IMG/VR virus record: IMGVR_UViG_3300015366_000185
Location: 1-32,907 of that record
From: a virus
Direction: 5' to 3' (one strand)
Length of the DNA stretch: 32,907 nt
Part shown: positions 388 through 32,907 of the stretch, piece by piece
Numbering within the stretch: the first letter of the stretch is position 1
How the letters are laid out: the number at the start of each line of letters is the position of its first letter
Position numbers and translations under genes: made by a program
The notes under the pieces: model-generated
What the model was told of the DNA's origin: nothing
The model's database searches: none
Seen by the model: the letters and a program-made list of their open reading frames with translations, nothing else

Positions 388-924
388 TTATTTTTTTTGA
401 GTTTTCCAAATGAATGGTGCGGAAGTGTAAGCATCATTCTCTGCTGCAATCTTCATTGCAAGTGCTGGAGTTGCACCAGCATGAAGAGCGCCAAGAGCAT
501 AAGAACTTCCTGAACCAACTCCATAAAATCCTGAACGATTCATTGCGACTGAGAAGTCATCTGCAATTTCAAATACTGTTCCACCGATTGCAATCAAGAA
601 TGCAAATCTAGTTTCATCATCCGAATCATCTTCAAGTTTGTAATCATTTTCTTTGAAGCATTGCTTGAGTGATGGAATAACTTTTGCAATCATAAAGTGA
701 TAAATATCTTTTGAATCTTTTGCAGATAGTAATGGCGGTTCCCAAATATGTTGAGCAATGTCGCAAGGAGCGCATTCACCTGAACCAGCGATAATATAAT
801 TTCCGCGCTGACTAATCTTTACCATTTTGTCATGCGAATAAACTCTGCCATTAGGAGCTGTTGTTTGGGAGTCTGCACCAAACATGACTAAATCATCTTT
901 TTGAATTGCGATGATCGTGGTCAC
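388..924 (-). CDS. Proteasome beta / HslV-like Ntn-hydrolase peptidase
   Basis: The 178-residue protein begins M-T-T-I-I-A-I, the start pattern of HslV and mature proteasome beta subunits, in which Thr becomes the N-terminal nucleophile once Met is removed. In Thr1 numbering the conserved Asp17 lies in the GADSQTT block. A Lys at 32 in HDKMVKI is a plausible Lys33 equivalent after a one-residue gap. IIAGSGE and GVGSGSSYALGA match the conserved glycine-rich turns, and the late TPALAMKIAAENDAY helix also fits. No ATPase partner (HslU or Mpa type) is encoded here. The start is GTG at 924, in a GTGA overlap with the upstream gene. The family is likely; peptidase activity and target are unknown. 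Confidence 0.75.
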   Translation of the reverse strand: MTTIIAIQKDDLVMFGADSQTTAPNGRVYSHDKMVKISQRGNYIIAGSGECAPCDIAQHIWEPPLLSAKDSKDIYHFMIAKVIPSLKQCFKENDYKLEDDSDDETRFAFLIAIGGTVFEIADDFSVAMNRSGFYGVGSGSSYALGALHAGATPALAMKIAAENDAYTSAPFIWKTQKK

Positions 925-1136: not shown

Positions 1137-1910
1137 TCAAGATTTGACATTTTTGTCAAGTAGGCTATTGCGAGCAGCCAAAAATCCTTTGAAGTCATAA
1201 ACCTCGCCTCGGCGAATGATGCCATTTCGCTTGGCGAACTGAGCCACATTTTTTGGGGTCATGTTTAGATATTTAGCGATTGCCTCGGCATCAAGCCAAA
1301 CCTCTTTGCCAGGATTTGCAAGAGCCACTGCAACCAGCCGAAGGGTTGTCCATTCGGATTTGCACTTTGGGCATTCAAAGATTTCCATCGGATCATCCAA
1401 AGCCTTGAGCCAAGAGTTGCAATACTCGCCATCGGGCAAAGTTGCCGGACATGGAATCTTTCGAGATTTGGAAGTGAAGGCTTTTGCAGCAATCATCCCT
1501 TTGGTGTGAATCTCTTTCAGCTCTTGGGCAAAGTCCTCGATCCAAGGTTGTTCGCCTGACCACTGCAAATGGCGTTGAGCGAATTTGATGGCTTGATCGA
1601 TTTCCTCAGGCAAAGGCAAGCGCTTGAGGAATGCTGGCCTTGTCAGATTGCGATCTTCGCGAATCAGCTTCTCCCATTCATGTAGGCAACCGAGAATGTC
1701 ATCGCCAGCCACGAATGAAAGCGCATTGACATTCAAGCCAATGGTTCGCTCCGGTGATCGGCCACCATCTCCGGATCTACCTGGAAGAAGTTCATTGTGA
1801 GCCAAATTCCAAAATTCGAGCAAATCATCCAATTGCTGATGAAGGCGATTTTGGCAACGATGGCAAAGTCCATCGATTTCAACGGTTCGATTGCAAAGTG
1901 GGCATGACAT
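1137..1910 (-). CDS. Zinc-ribbon protein with C-terminal HTH
   Basis: The 257-residue protein has two cysteine quartets. C3/C6/C16/C19 forms an N-terminal zinc finger. C154, C164, C180 and C183 fit a second ribbon. Residues 205-247 (WLDAEAIAKYLNMTPKNVAQF onward, then a RRGEVYDF wing) resemble an excisionase or MerR-type helix-turn-helix. This layout is common in actinophage early regions and suggests DNA binding. It is one candidate for the missing repressor or excisionase, but nothing proves that. Its ATG overlaps the previous stop by one base (TAATG). Its last codons lie within the palindrome at 1144-1159. Confidence 0.75.
   Translation of the reverse strand: MSCPLCNRTVEIDGLCHRCQNRLHQQLDDLLEFWNLAHNELLPGRSGDGGRSPERTIGLNVNALSFVAGDDILGCLHEWEKLIREDRNLTRPAFLKRLPLPEEIDQAIKFAQRHLQWSGEQPWIEDFAQELKEIHTKGMIAAKAFTSKSRKIPCPATLPDGEYCNSWLKALDDPMEIFECPKCKSEWTTLRLVAVALANPGKEVWLDAEAIAKYLNMTPKNVAQFAKRNGIIRRGEVYDFKGFLAARNSLLDKNVKS
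1144..1159. promoter_or_regulatory. Palindrome TTGACA-N4-TGTCAA, possible operator
   Basis: A perfect 6+4+6 inverted repeat (TTGACA TTTT TGTCAA) covers the last codons of the zinc-ribbon/HTH gene. It lies 18-41 nt upstream of the extended -10 promoter, and each arm is a consensus -35 hexamer. No -10 is correctly spaced on the minus strand, so an operator is at least as likely as a promoter element. It may also be coincidental coding sequence. Confidence 0.3.
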
Positions 1911-2260
1911 TAGAAATTTGGCTCCTTTAGTGGTTTTGAGGCAAATAGCGGTTCGGGTTCAAATATCGTGGAAAATTTACAATCATGGCTTCCAAGCACG
2001 ATTGCCTTTGGATCGCCTTTGGTCATCTGCCAAAGATTTCTCTGCTCTAGCTCGAAATCCGACCCTTTGCGAATCGTCTGATAAATCTTTCGACTCGATA
2101 AGCGCCAAGCGATTTCATCCGACAAGTTGAGTTGAGTTGGCTCAACTCTGACTCGCCATCCATTGACATGACATTCATAAATCCATCCGGTGCATTTCGG
2201 GCATTGCCTTAGTTTGGCGATGGAATTGATGAAGTGTTGGGATTGGTTGAATTCTTTCAT
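1910..2260 (-). CDS. Hypothetical protein with a CxxC motif
   Basis: The 116-residue protein has one CPKC motif near the N-terminus, followed by a beta-hairpin-like stretch (WIYECHVNGWRVRVEP) and a charged helical middle part. It looks like a small zinc-binding or DNA-binding accessory protein, but I do not recognise the family. I chose the ATG at 2260, which has GAGG six bases upstream; a GTG at 2275 lacks such a site. It lies directly between the iteron array and the zinc-ribbon/HTH gene, whose start overlaps its stop by one base, so it is part of the replication cluster. Confidence 0.65.
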   Translation of the reverse strand: MKEFNQSQHFINSIAKLRQCPKCTGWIYECHVNGWRVRVEPTQLNLSDEIAWRLSSRKIYQTIRKGSDFELEQRNLWQMTKGDPKAIVLGSHDCKFSTIFEPEPLFASKPLKEPNF

Positions 2261-2300
2261 TTTGACCTCGCCCACCTGTTCCCAGTTCCCCCTATAGAAG

Positions 2301-2462
2301 GGGGAACATGGGAACTAGTCATGGGAATTTTGATCGTTTGACTAGTTCCCGACTTTGGGAACAAGTGGGAACTAGTCAAAATGAGCGTAAATTTTGGGAA
2401 CTGGTGGGAACTAGTCATTTTGAAATCATCAAAAATCTCGGGAACTGGACAGGAACTAGTCA
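2301..2462. repeat. Iteron array, probable replication origin
   Basis: The 12-mer GGGAACTAGTCA occurs exactly at 2310-2321, 2367-2378 and 2406-2417, inverted at 2339-2350, and with one mismatch at 2451-2462. Each direct copy is preceded by another GGGAAC, mostly about one helical turn away (8-11 bp between the GGGAAC cores). The composite unit is therefore GGGAAC-N4-GGGAACTAGTCA. The array lies between the primase/ATPase gene and the next gene, where phage and plasmid initiators commonly bind iterons. A repressor operator cluster is the alternative. Confidence 0.7.
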
Positions 2463-2473
2463 TTTTGTCCAAC

Positions 2474-4579
2474 TTAGGCAGTTTCATGATTTTCATCAAT
2501 TTTGAAAGAATCAAGGCCAGCGCGACCATCATCTTCTTCCCGATAAGGTCGAAGCAATTTGAGGTTCAAGGAATTGCGAACGCCGTTTTCGACAGCAATA
2601 AATTTCTCATCAACTAACACTTGACAAGCCAAAATGACCCACTCTCGGCGACCCTTGACCTCACCAATCACAGCATTCTTTGAAAGCGCCCCATTTGCCC
2701 CTTCTAGCACCTTTGAGACCGCTTCCATCAGATGCGTTGGCCGTAGTCGATCACGCTCGCCAAGTGGCGCAAGGATCGTCATATCAACCGACCCATCGGC
2801 TGAGGATTTGAGTTGAACGGTTCCGGCAAACTTGGCTTCCTTGGATACGGCGCGAACATGGCCAGGGCGATCCTTGGTGACCTTCAAAGTCAGCTCACCC
2901 GACATTCCTCGGCCAAATGGCAAAACGACTTCGACCATGATGGCTGCGCCATTGATGTCGGCTCGCTTAGCCTGAGCGCCAATGGCATAGTTTCCTCGAC
3001 CTTCCTTGGATTTGGTGACATGATCAATTGTGATCGTGCAAGCCCCTGAGAGCGCCAAAGGCCGAAGCAATTGCTGGCTGAAGAATGTGGCATCTCGGTT
3101 TGATGTGAGATCGAGATTGAGCAAAGTCATTGCAGCGTTCACGCCATCAACAATGATCAAGTCAGGTTGGATTTCAAGCAAAGCATCAACCAAGTCAATT
3201 CGCTCATCTAGCGTGAGATTTTGATCAGGGTTGGCATAAGTGAAATTGGCAAAATGCTGATCTTCCAAGCCCAATGCTCGAAGGCGCATCAAGATGCCTT
3301 TGCCCGAATCTTCAAAGTCTAAATAAATAACTTTTTCGGCAACCTGAAGCGCTTGCTTTACTGCGAGCAATGCAACCCAAGTTTTTCCGGATTCTGATTC
3401 GCCGAGCAAAGCGTTGATCTTGCCTTTGTAGAACAATCGATGTCCATCGCCTCTTGCAAGAAACAATGGCGCTGGCTCTTCATTTTCACCAGTGAGATCA
3501 AGTGGCCTTGGATACCAAGATGAGCGTTGGCGAGTTTCTTCAATGTGATCAGCATCGAGATCGGGAACGACTGTGAGATTTGGCTTGATGATCTCACCGA
3601 GAGTCGGCAAGCTAGGCAAGGATTTAGAACCAAAACCCATTGAGCGAAGTTCCTTGGCTGCTGCTGAGAAATCGCCAGCATGATTCAAGTGAGCGAATGC
3701 AGCAAATTTTGAATAAGGCTTTTCAGCTTCAAATGTTGTCGAAGTTGTAAATACGAAAAGATTGCCTGTGTCATCTTTTGTGGTTGCTGAGATTCCGATG
3801 TCTTTGTTTGGTCTGCGCCAGTAGGTTATGCCTTTGGCTGAATAGACTTTCTTCCAGCCGATTGGTTCAAGGATTTCTTCCCAAGTTGCAGTTTCATTGA
3901 AAGCATCGCCTGGCTTATCTTTAGCGCTTGGCTCTTTTGGATTTAGCACTTGAGCGATTGATTCTTTGACTGGCATTGAATCAAGAGCTTTGAAAATTGC
4001 GTGGATTGCATTTCGCTCTTCCCAAGATAGCACCGGAATCAGAGCCGGAGATCCCTTTAGAAGCACCCAAGGTTGACCCGATGGATGTGTTGATCCATGA
4101 GAAGGCGCTGTGACTACGAATCCGCCTTCGCCTCTTGTTTCGGCTAGAACTTCAACTGAGTCATTTTCACCTGGTCTGCGAGCAAGTTTGGTGTTTCCTG
4201 GAACTGGTTCATCTGCAATTCGATAGAGCCAATGCAAACCGCCTGAAGGCGTGAACTCAACATAACCATTCGAAAGGATTTCCCAAAGCTCACCAAGCCC
4301 TGAGTTGATAGCGAGTTCACGCGCCTCATCGAGAAGGCCACCATTGACGGCTCTGCCTTCCATTTCGAGCATTTCAAGATTGCCCGAAACTGCTCCAGTG
4401 ATAATCCCGATTCCTTTGGGATTTCCTGAAAACCAACTGGCGATCTGTTCGCGATCTGCCATTGTGACTTGATATTGCTTCCAAGAAGTTATCGGCGCTT
4501 TTGAGCCATCTTCCTTGGCAGGGATAACCGAAATTCCGGCATCATAGAAATCCAACGCTGCTTGCAATATCTCATTCAT
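2474..4579 (-). CDS. Primase-polymerase fused to RepA-like ATPase (replication protein)
   Basis: The 701-residue protein has an N-terminal bifunctional primase/polymerase domain (about 1-200). Its acidic pair is E72-x-E74 in LEMLEMEG, followed by SGGLHWLY (112-119) and the RGEGGFVVTAPS strand-turn (149-160). The C-terminal half is a RecA-fold ATPase of the AAA_25/RepA type: Walker A GESESGKT (393-400), YLDFED (419-424), Walker B LIIVDG (474-479) and TIDHVTK (517-523). Such fusions prime and unwind DNA for phage replication. The start is ATG 4579 in an ATGA overlap, with GGGGGAAAAG just upstream. The iteron array directly follows its stop, the usual place for an initiator's binding sites. Confidence 0.88.
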   Translation of the reverse strand: MNEILQAALDFYDAGISVIPAKEDGSKAPITSWKQYQVTMADREQIASWFSGNPKGIGIITGAVSGNLEMLEMEGRAVNGGLLDEARELAINSGLGELWEILSNGYVEFTPSGGLHWLYRIADEPVPGNTKLARRPGENDSVEVLAETRGEGGFVVTAPSHGSTHPSGQPWVLLKGSPALIPVLSWEERNAIHAIFKALDSMPVKESIAQVLNPKEPSAKDKPGDAFNETATWEEILEPIGWKKVYSAKGITYWRRPNKDIGISATTKDDTGNLFVFTTSTTFEAEKPYSKFAAFAHLNHAGDFSAAAKELRSMGFGSKSLPSLPTLGEIIKPNLTVVPDLDADHIEETRQRSSWYPRPLDLTGENEEPAPLFLARGDGHRLFYKGKINALLGESESGKTWVALLAVKQALQVAEKVIYLDFEDSGKGILMRLRALGLEDQHFANFTYANPDQNLTLDERIDLVDALLEIQPDLIIVDGVNAAMTLLNLDLTSNRDATFFSQQLLRPLALSGACTITIDHVTKSKEGRGNYAIGAQAKRADINGAAIMVEVVLPFGRGMSGELTLKVTKDRPGHVRAVSKEAKFAGTVQLKSSADGSVDMTILAPLGERDRLRPTHLMEAVSKVLEGANGALSKNAVIGEVKGRREWVILACQVLVDEKFIAVENGVRNSLNLKLLRPYREEDDGRAGLDSFKIDENHETA

Positions 4580-4782
4580 TCTTTTCCCCCGACCCAAATG
4601 CTTTCCTGATAAATCGTGTGGTAATGGCAAAGCGAAACCATGCTCACCCTTTTGTCATCTCCGTAATATAAGCCGAAATCTGCATCTTCCTCACAACGCT
4701 CCCAAAACCCTGGCTCTGACTCAAACACGAAACAACATTGATCTTCAAATCGCGTTGTGCGCTTGAATTTGACCTTAGCCAT
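4576..4782 (-). CDS. Small cysteine-rich protein, unknown function
   Basis: The 68-residue protein has four cysteines (a CC pair near 17-18, C32, and C54 in SLCHYH) plus histidines, so a zinc site is possible. The middle is acidic (EEDADFGLYYGDD). I do not recognise the family. The ATG at 4782 overlaps the stop of the previous gene, and it ends in ATGA with the primase start. Its own ribosome site is weak and translational coupling is likely; a TTG at 4803 is the other possible start. Confidence 0.6.
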   Translation of the reverse strand: MAKVKFKRTTRFEDQCCFVFESEPGFWERCEEDADFGLYYGDDKRVSMVSLCHYHTIYQESIWVGGKE

Positions 4783-5577: not shown

Positions 5578-5854
5578 GTGATTCTCCTGTTTCTTTGTTG
5601 GGGTCAAACATCTCATCGAACGATGAGAATTCTGATTCTGCAATCAACTTGTTCAAGTCATTGATTGTCATATCGCCATCCATTTCGAGGTTGGCTTCAA
5701 ATGCCATAAAACCTAATTCTTTGAGTTCGACAAGAAGCTCTTCAATGTCCTCAAATGAATCAACAATTTGCGTTGCATCCTTGCGAGCGAAGAACAAGCC
5801 AATGCCATAACCTATTGCAAAGGTTAGGAAAGAAAAAATCAACCAAAGGATCAT
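5570..5854 (-). CDS. Small membrane-anchored acidic protein
   Basis: The 94-residue protein has one N-terminal membrane helix (ILWLIFSFLTFAIGYGIGLF, about residues 2-21) followed by a basic ARK. The cytoplasmic tail is acidic and helical (DSFEDIEELLVELKELGF). The ATG at 5854 overlaps the stop of the methyltransferase C-terminal gene as ATGA. Downstream it overlaps the SSB-like gene by 8 nt. I do not recognise the family. Confidence 0.65.
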   Translation of the reverse strand: MILWLIFSFLTFAIGYGIGLFFARKDATQIVDSFEDIEELLVELKELGFMAFEANLEMDGDMTINDLNKLIAESEFSSFDEMFDPNKETGESHE

Positions 5855-6381
5855 TGATTTGCCACCATTCTTTTGACGATCCAATCTACCACTGGCACTG
5901 CCACAGCATTGCCCATTTGCTTATAACGATTTGAATCTGCTTGTGAGATCACCGCTTGCTTTTTTTCATCAAAGCGTTCAGCAGTCCAGCCATCAGGAAA
6001 TCCTTGAAGGCGCTCGCATTCTGTTGGCGTTAGCCGGCGAACTGTTTGGTTTGAAGTTATTGCTGGCACATTGCCACCCCCTGTTCCCCATCTTGAAATT
6101 ACTGTTGGCACGATGCCATCTTCATAAATCCGCACATCATCAACGCGAGTTCCATCGATGATCAAAACGCCTGGTCTTCCCTCATTTGCTCCGCCTGATC
6201 TCAAAGTATGAAAATTCCTTTCATCAATTGTTGCATTGTAAAAATCAATCCCAAGAATCAACACTGTGGCAAATGAATCGCCTGAATTGTCCATTGCGTT
6301 CAAAGTAGGCGCAACCCCCCCCTGCAACCATGTTTCATAATCGTCAACATTTCTCGCTCTCTTGCTTTTAGTGAACCACAT
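5851..6381 (-). CDS. Cytosine-5 DNA methyltransferase, C-terminal part (target recognition, motifs IX-X)
   Basis: The 176-residue protein holds the second half of a C5 methyltransferase. Residues 1-100 cover part of the target-recognition region (TKSKRARN, APTLNAMD, IDGTRVDDVRIYEDG). These are followed by RRLTPTECERLQGFPDGW (motif IX area) and RYKQMGNAVAVPVVDWI (motif X). The catalytic half is encoded just upstream in another frame. The ATG at 6381 has CAGG seven bases upstream; a GTG at 6402 is the alternative. A G8 tract lies in frame at 6315-6322, and one slip there would truncate the protein. It could be a true second subunit, as in split enzymes such as M.AquI, or half of a broken gene. 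Confidence 0.7.
   Translation of the reverse strand: MWFTKSKRARNVDDYETWLQGGVAPTLNAMDNSGDSFATVLILGIDFYNATIDERNFHTLRSGGANEGRPGVLIIDGTRVDDVRIYEDGIVPTVISRWGTGGGNVPAITSNQTVRRLTPTECERLQGFPDGWTAERFDEKKQAVISQADSNRYKQMGNAVAVPVVDWIVKRMVANQ
6315..6322 (-). repeat. G8 tract inside the methyltransferase C-terminal part
   Basis: Eight consecutive G on the coding (minus) strand occur within the codons for L-Q-G-G-V. At this length the reading frame is open on both sides. It is one of only two 8-base G runs I noticed in the window, and both are in this methyltransferase. Confidence 0.8.
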
Positions 6382-6458
6382 CAATAACCTGCAAAAGTCC
6401 ACTATTCACAGCTTGATTGGAAGTTTGCCCTTTGGTTAGGTCTGCGACAGTTAGGGAA

Positions 6459-7181
6459 TCAATAATGTTTCGCTCCCCCCCCTAGAACGCCACCCTTAGC
6501 CTTTAGGGTTGCAAATTTTCCTTCGGCAAATTGTCCAAAACTTGATTCGCCAAATGCTCTAGCGCTATTCGAAGTTTTTCGGGCAATGTCTTCTCTCTTT
6601 TGTTCGCTCTCCGCAATATACCCTGCGCGGCCTTCGCTGATAGCGAGTATTTGTTCAGGTGTTCGCCAGTCGTTTCCAAGATGTCCGACAATAAAGACTC
6701 TTCTGCGCCGTTGGGGAACTCCGAAGTGTTGAGCATCAAGCACTCTCCATGCGATGCTATACCCGAGGTCATCCAACGCTCCGATGACGGTTGCCATATC
6801 TTTTCCGTTGTTGCTTGAGAGTAAGCCAGGGACATTTTCGAGGATGAAGTTTTGCGCTTTGGTTTCGTCAAGGAGTCTGACGATTTCCCAAAAGAGGCCA
6901 CTTCTTGCACCTTCAAGTCCAGCTCGCTTCCCTGCAACTGACAAATCTTGGCAAGGAAATCCGCCAACAATGATTCCTGTGCTTGGTTCAAATCCTGCAT
7001 CAATCAAATCCTTCCCTGTAACTTCACAAACATCATTGAAAAGTTTTGTGTTTGGAAATTTATGTTTCAAAACGCCACGCGCATTTGCATCGATCTCAAC
7101 GGCTGCAACAACTTTCACGCCATTGTTTTCCAATGCAATATCAAAGCCACCAACACCAGCAAAGAGGCTGACCGCGTTCAT
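6459..7181 (-). CDS. Cytosine-5 DNA methyltransferase, N-terminal catalytic part
   Basis: The 240-residue protein carries motif I FAGVGGFD (7-14), the catalytic Cys77 in GGFPCQDLS (motif IV), ENVPGL (115-120, motif VI) and QRRRR (157-161, motif VIII). It would transfer a methyl group from SAM to C5 of cytosine in a short target. The reading frame ends within the target-recognition region, a few codons after a G8 tract (6475-6482). Motifs IX-X lie in the next gene in a different frame. It overlaps the FmdB-like gene by ATGA. Phage orphan methyltransferases often protect against host restriction. Activity as encoded depends on whether the two halves assemble. Confidence 0.8.
   Translation of the reverse strand: MNAVSLFAGVGGFDIALENNGVKVVAAVEIDANARGVLKHKFPNTKLFNDVCEVTGKDLIDAGFEPSTGIIVGGFPCQDLSVAGKRAGLEGARSGLFWEIVRLLDETKAQNFILENVPGLLSSNNGKDMATVIGALDDLGYSIAWRVLDAQHFGVPQRRRRVFIVGHLGNDWRTPEQILAISEGRAGYIAESEQKREDIARKTSNSARAFGESSFGQFAEGKFATLKAKGGVLGGGAKHY
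6475..6482 (-). repeat. G8 tract at the end of the methyltransferase N-terminal part
   Basis: Eight G on the coding strand follow GTT CTA. With eight, the frame ends five codons later. With seven, a plausible reading continues 35 codons (through TVADLTKGQTSNQAVNSGLL) to a stop at 6368, overlapping the downstream ATG (6381) by 14 nt. With nine, it reads GGGSETL and stops soon after. The tract therefore decides where the first half ends. Confidence 0.8.
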
Positions 7182-14978: not shown

Positions 14979-15773
14979 CTATTCGATGAGGTTGACGAGC
15001 GACCTGGTTCGCCCTTGAGCAAGTTGAGTGTAAATTTGAGTTGTGGCCACTGTTGTGTGACGCATCAATTCCTTGACTGCCATCAAGTCACCGCCGGATT
15101 TCTCTAGCATTGAGGTGGCAAAGTAATGTCGCAAGGAATGGAATTTCTTGGAATTGGCTCCAAGTATTCGGCGCATTTCGGCAGCCGATTTTGCGGAGAG
15201 CTTGTTTGGAGTGATCTGCCATAAGCGATCCAAGGTGTTATGAGATCGGATGGTTTCGGCAACTATTGGCGCGACTGGAATCATCAAGTCGGTTCCGCCT
15301 TTGCCAAGCACCCGAAGCATCGCGCCATCAGCGCCTTCTTCGAGATCAGCGCCTCTCACATTGGCAACTTCCATCGCCCGAAGCCCTGCACAACCGCCAA
15401 GAATGAACCACGATCTAAACGGCTCAGGAGCCTGTTCTAAGAGCCTAAAAAATTCGGCTGGTGTGATTGGCTTAGGAACTCCCCTTGTGCGCTTGATAGG
15501 TGGCAAATCAGCCGTTATTTGACTATTTATGAGCCTCATCTTGTTGAGGGTAGCAAATACCGATTTCAACCTGCTGGCGTAATTGGCGCGAGTCGATTGA
15601 GTCTTAGCTCGAAGGATGACTCGCTCAAGATCAGCCAGGGTTGCCTCTTGCGGATGAACGCCTAAGCGAAGGATCAAAGCCCAATCATTGCGAAAGAGAT
15701 TCTCGGCAAAGCCGGAAGTCTTGTATCGGTTATGAAGTTGCTCTTTGATCTGATCCATTGGAACTAATTCCAT
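14979..15773 (-). CDS. Tyrosine recombinase / integrase (short, Xer-like)
   Basis: The 264-residue protein has a SAM-like core-binding domain (about 1-95) and a catalytic domain with all active-site residues: R132 in AGLRAMEV, K158 in LGKGGT, H212/R215 in HSLRHYFA, H239 in LMRHTTV and Tyr248 in TTQIYTQ. There is no arm-binding domain, so it resembles Xer or simple phage integrases. The ATG at 15773 is 11 nt from AAGGGG; an in-frame TTG at 15779 is better spaced and may be the true start. It sits inside the tail/lysis run beside three fibre paralogues, with no room for a tRNA-type attP nearby and no recognisable repressor. Lysogeny is plausible but not shown. Confidence 0.88.
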   Translation of the reverse strand: MELVPMDQIKEQLHNRYKTSGFAENLFRNDWALILRLGVHPQEATLADLERVILRAKTQSTRANYASRLKSVFATLNKMRLINSQITADLPPIKRTRGVPKPITPAEFFRLLEQAPEPFRSWFILGGCAGLRAMEVANVRGADLEEGADGAMLRVLGKGGTDLMIPVAPIVAETIRSHNTLDRLWQITPNKLSAKSAAEMRRILGANSKKFHSLRHYFATSMLEKSGGDLMAVKELMRHTTVATTQIYTQLAQGRTRSLVNLIE

Positions 15774-15799
15774 GACCAAATCATCCCCTTATTTTCAGC

Positions 15800-32860: not shown

Positions 32861-32907
32861 CTGTCTCTTATACACATCTCCGAGCCCACGAGACGCTACG
32901 CTATCTC
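32861..32907 (+). other. Illumina Nextera adapter and index (not phage DNA)
   Basis: CTGTCTCTTATACACATCT (32861-32879) is the Tn5 mosaic end. CCGAGCCCACGAGAC (32880-32894) is the Nextera read-2 adapter, GCTACGCT (32895-32902) matches index N709, and ATCTC starts the P7 segment. These bases were read through from a short library insert and left on the contig. Confidence 0.98.

Follow-up and report, generated by a model that had tools for sequence, protein, structure and literature searches.

Short repeats directly behind a phage prim-pol/ATPase gene very probably form its replication origin, with letters that covary with the winged helix of the initiator

The question raised by this locus is what a dense cluster of short repeats does directly behind a phage primase/ATPase gene, and which protein reads it. 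The window, as the whole stretch of DNA analysed is called here, is a metagenomic contig of 32,907 bp with an adapter at one end, and the genome may be incomplete. Positions 32861-32907, ctgtctcttatacacatctccgagcccacgagac followed by a tail resembling an index, are a Nextera transposase adapter that was not removed from the assembly, and therefore the right end of the window is not biological. An integrase-like ORF (window 14979-15779, minus strand; phrog_1) suggests a temperate phage. The window also encodes an HslV/proteasome-like protein (388-924, minus strand; phrog_1040, weak PF00227) and a C5-cytosine methylase in two adjoining minus-strand ORFs (5851-6402 and 6459-7181, N- and C-terminal parts of PF00145), which reflects a frameshift, an insertion or a split gene.

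The array lies between two genes of the same strand, which have the following features:

2474-4579, minus strand: putative replication initiator gene, with prim-pol, RecA/KaiC-like ATPase and C-terminal winged helix (PF09250, PF13481, phrog_19930)
2759-3484, minus strand: RecA/KaiC/DnaB-like ATPase domain (PF13481, AAA_25; AlphaFold2 model)
2555-2737, minus strand: C-terminal winged helix (wH), with H1 at residues 615-627, H2 at 634-640, H3 at 645-657 and the wing at 661-675 in the model
2633-2677, minus strand: putative reading residues 635, 638, 644, 645 and 649 (N, I, R, R and I in the window phage), which covary with the iteron core
1910-2275, minus strand: gene for a small Zn-ribbon-like protein (CxxC...HxC; phrog_10480), probable ATG at 2260

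The initiator has 701 amino acids from the ATG at 4579, or 718 from an upstream TTG at 4630. Its gene matched phrog_19930, a DNA polymerase/primase family, and an archaeo-eukaryotic prim-pol domain was detected (PF09250, E 1e-13). Residues 340-690 were modelled by AlphaFold2 with a pLDDT of 90, and the best solved folds for the ATPase were KaiC, the T7 gp4 helicase and DnaB-type proteins (Z about 19-21 over about 205 residues), with no SaPI Rep among the fold matches listed. An SF3 helicase domain was not found in the initiator, whose ATPase is PF13481 with a KaiC/T7 gp4/DnaB-like fold. The wH gave weak profile and fold matches to winged helices of the MecI/MarR/GntR type; modelled alone it was poor (pLDDT 60), and this separate model had no Foldseek match at E<=0.001.

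The preliminary description had reported five copies of a 12-mer, four exact, one inverted and one with a mismatch, at 2301-2462. This count was right, the inverted copy being one of the four exact ones: exact copies of GGGAACTAGTCA stand at 2310+, 2339-, 2367+ and 2406+, and a copy with a single mismatch at 2451+. No further exact copy was found in the whole record, and all copies with up to one mismatch fall within one 150-bp cluster, with no dispersed sites in the genome. When up to two mismatches were allowed, the whole window contained eight matches, six of them in the array, against 1.27 expected and a maximum of five in 100 shuffles. The additional GGGAAC cores, said to lie about one helical turn away, were also recovered. 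On the gene strand the unit is a 10-bp site, ACnnnnTCCC, mostly arranged in pairs 10 or 11 bp apart, that is one helical turn, with one inverted site and a terminal hairpin in addition. The array is thus real, but it extends beyond the interval first given, to the right arm of the hairpin at about 2274, and its full span is 2274-2462, between the stop codon of the initiator and the Zn-ribbon-like gene. Its elements, in the direction of the genes, are:

2451-2460, minus strand: iteron 1, ACTAGTTCCT
2440-2449, minus strand: iteron 2, TCCAGTTCCC, 11 bp after iteron 1
2406-2415, minus strand: iteron 3, ACTAGTTCCC
2396-2405, minus strand: iteron 4, ACCAGTTCCC, 10 bp after iteron 3
2382-2388, minus strand: constant spacer motif ACGCTCA, unchanged where relatives have other iteron cores
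2367-2376, minus strand: iteron 5, ACTAGTTCCC
2357-2366, minus strand: iteron 6, ACTTGTTCCC
2341-2350, plus strand: iteron 7, inverted
2310-2319, minus strand: iteron 8, ACTAGTTCCC, left arm of the terminal hairpin
2274-2319, minus strand: terminal hairpin, formed by iteron 8, then GTTCCCCCT-TCTAT-AGGGGGAAC, and the right arm GGGAACAGG

Iteron 7 and the iteron 5 side form a perfect inverted repeat of 14 nt (2337-2350 / 2367-2380). The spacers are AT-rich by eye, no distinct AT-rich unwinding element was identified in the array, and Tandem Repeats Finder reported nothing there. ACGCTCA/TGAGCGT is a second motif in the spacers, constant in the window and its relatives while the iteron core changes, and may bind a host protein. 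GC skew, proposed as a check of the replication start, lent no support, as it did not turn at the array and had its minimum near 12-16 kb.

The distances between direct copies (57, 39 and 45 bp) had been described as curious multiples of three. The distances are correct, and relatives with other cores keep 45, 39 and 57 bp between the pairs, but the divisibility is due to chance: direct spacings in 12 arrays left remainders of 0, 1 and 2 in 12, 29 and 19 cases, respectively, and the pattern is therefore meaningless. The two ORFs reading through the array are not conserved genes, and together with this check they led to the rejection of a coding repeat, although arrays do lie in the coding end of the initiator elsewhere.

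Conservation in relatives had been named as one of the points on which the idea of an initiator-binding array would stand or fall. Place and geometry are kept in nearly all of them, but the letters are not. Close relatives (77-87% identical) carry the array behind the same gene, with ACCCTTTCCC, ACCTCGTCCC or ACCATTTCCC in place of ACTAGTTCCC. Further relatives with the array were obtained by a pattern search based on geometry only; two other matches to the pattern (L020 and L028) look like tail genes and chance. Among the 80 relatives yielded by a profile scan, almost every one has a dense cluster of repeats at this position, and at least a dozen types of core are represented; a second scan, for distant relatives, added many more. 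The core differs by lineage (AGTT, CTTT, TCGT, GATC, TTGACCG and others). An 8-mer with at least four copies in the 330 bp behind the initiator stop was present in 100 of the 136 loci collected by protein first, and counting the end of the ORF as well added 22, most of which have the array inside the coding end. Altogether, about 122 of 136 relatives thus have a dense array where the initiator gene ends, and equally frequent 8-mers occurred in 48 of 800 random windows of those loci. The array starts about 20 bp or less from the initiator stop codon in the window and in many relatives, and lies inside the 3' end of the initiator ORF in one lineage and several distant ones (L072, L078, L080, L243, L264, L273, L300 and L312, with L314 near 1800), as it does in the ATPase-family gene of plasmid pKRAD02; in such cases the repeats are therefore translated. 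The Zn-ribbon-like gene is the conserved next gene after the array, being present in six of seven related records. Arthrobacter phage Peas has a distant relative of the Zn-ribbon-like protein of the window, and tblastn searches of the phage collection with the Zn and HTH genes gave no match.

The eight homologous sites of the window, L039 and L010 align in register without gaps. Identity among the three is 96-100% at the outer AC and TCCC, 63-69% in the spacers and 16-31% at the four inner bases. Every site thus has its inner bases changed in concert between spacers that have stayed alike, and the array was not swapped in as a block of foreign sequence. As to how about eight sites change in this way, one may guess at gene conversion or at an intermediate initiator that was tolerant.

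The change of letters was compared with the initiator, a CG core being defined as one containing CGTCC or TCGCC. In the protein-first set, a CG core accompanied E638 and R649 in 39 of 39 loci and occurred in 4 of the 61 loci without these residues (both features 39, E/R only 0, core only 4, neither 57; p=1.4e-23), with the reservation that the CG feature was picked after the first clade had been seen and that the alignment used to seed the second scan was itself rich in E/R proteins. Thinning at 60% identity left 17/0/4/17 in the same table (p 2e-7). The exceptions to the E/R rule were L129, L175 and L283 (T638, core CTTCGTCC) and L234 (I/A, core CCTCGCCC). Columns 638 and 649 ranked first and second among the C-terminal columns. 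On a tree of the ATPase domain, 5.5 phylogenetically independent pairs differing in core agreed with E/R and none went against it (p 0.031), and among 249 residue states scored by independent pairs R649 (6.4 of 7) and E638 (5.0) were the best, the next reaching 2.6; the tree-based test and the ranking of columns protect against effects of common descent, but not completely against the post-hoc choice of the CG feature.

Individual pairs of loci pointed to the same domain. Over residues 1-600 the initiators of L043 and L044 share 99.2% identity, and their wH differ at residues 628, 629, 635, 642, 644, 645, 650, 654 and 661, including S635N, K642Q, K644R and T645R. Their cores are C(C/T)AGTTCCC (AGTT) and CCCTTTCCC (CTTT), respectively. 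L043 has N635, R644, R645 and the AGTT core in common with the window, while its protein otherwise resembles that of L044 closely. The Zn and HTH proteins, considered as readers of the iterons, are nearly unchanged across this switch of core (93.7% and 98.8% identical, the latter over 172 residues compared), and both were rejected for that role. L283 and L305 differ at one of 283 ATPase residues and at 46 positions in the C-terminal part, and their cores differ as well. As far as sequences can tell, the iteron letters covary with the initiator's own wH and not with the Zn or HTH neighbours; repeats and wH appear to change together, so that part of one is predictable from the other.

This predictability was examined in two scans of DNA only, for which the expected protein residues had been written down beforehand. 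The CTCG scan, for pairs of ACCTCGTCCC, returned 43 loci with an initiator gene, and in 41 of them E/R stand in the right register; without the five loci that were already known, the count was 36 of 38. The AGTT scan gave a single initiator locus not known before, L196, whose protein (32% identical) has N635 and GRR as expected (1/1). The other strong AGTT clusters (L185, L192, L197, L202 and L217) do not adjoin an initiator gene and are unexplained or coding. Three of these contigs are near-identical and carry a cluster of CAGTTCCC/GGTTCCC repeats (L185 at 4534, L197 at 2217, L217 at 14081) with no prim-pol/ATPase gene nearby. Another phage, L005, has E638 and R649 and was predicted to have a TCGT array, but its contig ends inside the initiator gene; no array was seen at the other end of the contig, and no other contig overlaps it.

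Taken together, these results make it very probable that the array is the replication origin of the phage and that the ACnnnnTCCC sites are iterons for the wH of the prim-pol/ATPase encoded just upstream. A helix-phased cluster of short repeats adjoins the initiator gene, as is expected of an iteron origin, and the sites are apparently recognised by the replicon's own initiator. The earlier suggestion of a binding array for the protein of the adjoining primase/ATPase gene thus gains support from the covariation of the letters with the wH. By physical binding, the wH would read the four variable bases through residues 635, 638, 644, 645 and 649 in helices H2 and H3, while conserved parts would read the outer AC and TCCC. 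The sites paired one turn apart, the inverted copy and the terminal hairpin may gather several initiators; at the firing of the origin the RecA-like ATPase ring would then open the DNA or load on it, and the prim-pol would then prime.

The covariation of wH and core would be equally expected if the array were an autoregulatory operator, through which the wH controlled transcription into the downstream genes and not the start of replication. The array lies between co-directional genes, and the right arm of the hairpin carries a purine-rich stretch before the next start codon, which would suit such a role. However, no promoter-like site was found in the region, the array stands behind the initiator gene and not before it, even within its coding end in several lineages, and two small plasmids carry it. 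Related systems of this layout are origins (PMC7581432, PMC4234260), and autoregulation as the main role was considered improbable. The roles of operator and origin can coexist.

Sites of repressors can also diversify between relatives, as do the stoperators of cluster A mycobacteriophages. Such diversification, and the integrase-like gene of this phage, would agree with a set of operators or stoperators belonging to a lysogeny repressor that is encoded elsewhere and has its own immunity specificity. That reading was judged very improbable, since all good sites form one cluster with none dispersed, and the cores follow the wH of the initiator, while the nearby HTH gene hardly differs between L043 and L044, whose cores are different.

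Least probable of all is that the array acts as RNA, through hairpins, by attenuation or by controlling translation of the Zn gene, with its changes reflecting base pairing: the single strand of the whole array does fold far better than shuffles (z -7.2, DNA parameters), and the terminal hairpin recurs in relatives with changed stem letters and pairing kept, but no Rfam match was obtained, some relatives have the inverted copy only in part or not at all, and pairing leaves unexplained both the direct pairs at 10-11 bp and the changes of the DNA-reading helix together with the core. A G-quadruplex was rejected too; GGGAAAGGGTGGGAAAGGG in the CCCTTTCCC phages fits the motif, which is broken in the window and in the TCGT phages and is therefore not the conserved property.

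The layout ascribed here to an origin was also recognised in known replicons. Microcystis phage MinS1 (L035, MZ923504) has eight copies of CTCGTCCC directly after a gene annotated as 'AAA family ATPase', whose protein carries E/R. The replication module of MinS1 is of the actinobacterial prophage type, and in the phage's own paper the nearest for the ATPase gene was Nocardioides. The initiator's ATPase family is also encoded by pKRAD02 (12.9 kb) and p-XQ-29-C (7.9 kb), two plasmids in which repeats form an array at the 3' end of the gene. When reference genomes were scanned, one distant match appeared, in Nocardia. In Arthrobacter phages of the genus Bridgettevirus, GTGACA sites form an array, accompanied by a palindrome, immediately after the primase gene (L032 7472-7807, L033 7480-7813), with no feature annotation in the records; this primase gene matches the window's initiator in its first half only, and a distantly related Zn gene follows the array.

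A wider proposal, for and against which the case was considered evenly balanced, is that a very large family of phages and prophages of actinobacteria, with some plasmids, uses an open-ended code, in which a few wH residues specify the four central bases of the iterons, about eight iterons change jointly and in place along with these residues, and close relatives thereby become blind to each other's origins. The pressure behind it is perhaps attack by iteron-targeting nucleases, satellites or competing replicons. Looking for the array is a simple means of locating the origins of prim-pol phages, of prophages and of small plasmids from actinobacteria, and its letters offer a way to predict which replicons ignore each other.

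Among known systems, the window resembles the Rep-ori of SaPIs and Cch2 of SCCmec in having iterons directly downstream of the initiator gene that are apparently read by a C-terminal domain. The C-terminal domain of SaPI Rep binds iterons directly downstream of its own gene, that of Cch2 does likewise, and SaPI5 Rep and Cch2 have a helicase of the Primase_Cterm/D5 type (PMC7581432). By contrast, the ATPase of the window is RecA/KaiC/DnaB-like and fused to an archaeo-eukaryotic prim-pol, and its array consists of 10-bp sites in pairs with a hairpin. With ORF904 of pRN1 and with phage BIP-1 it shares a prim-pol N-terminus, a C-terminal winged helix and a stem-loop 3' of the gene, and replication of pRN1 needs the stem-loop 3' of the prim-pol gene (PMC4234260). 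However, pRN1 has an SF3 helicase and no iterons, and specific binding was not demonstrable there, whereas the iterons of the window are plain and covary with the wH. Phage P4 alpha is alike as a primase/helicase/winged-helix polypeptide with origin repeats. The helicase of alpha is of the SF3 type, and this and the TOPRIM primase set P4 apart from the window. Alpha unites primase, helicase and winged helix in one polypeptide, its winged helix binds the ori repeats, and its primase is of the TOPRIM type (PMC4234260).

Covariation of an initiator's DNA-binding domain with origin iterons is shared with the PLE satellites of Vibrio, where, in RepA/origin modules and the nuclease Odn, domain and iterons change in step and are exchanged as one module (PMC8263062). 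PLEs have two types and domain swaps, whereas many core types, point changes in the reading helix and concerted change at about eight sites were found here. Actinomycete integrating conjugative elements of the RepPP and SLP1 type have prim-pol replication modules, in a paper whose text does not contain the word 'iteron' (PMC3218068), and are alike as actinobacterial mobile elements with prim-pol replication genes. Iteron origins with their initiators, and co-switching in one satellite system, were already known; the present collection of well over a hundred natural repeat/initiator pairs from phages and prophages, with at least a dozen core types, makes the change of origin specificity without death of the replicon directly testable, residue by base.
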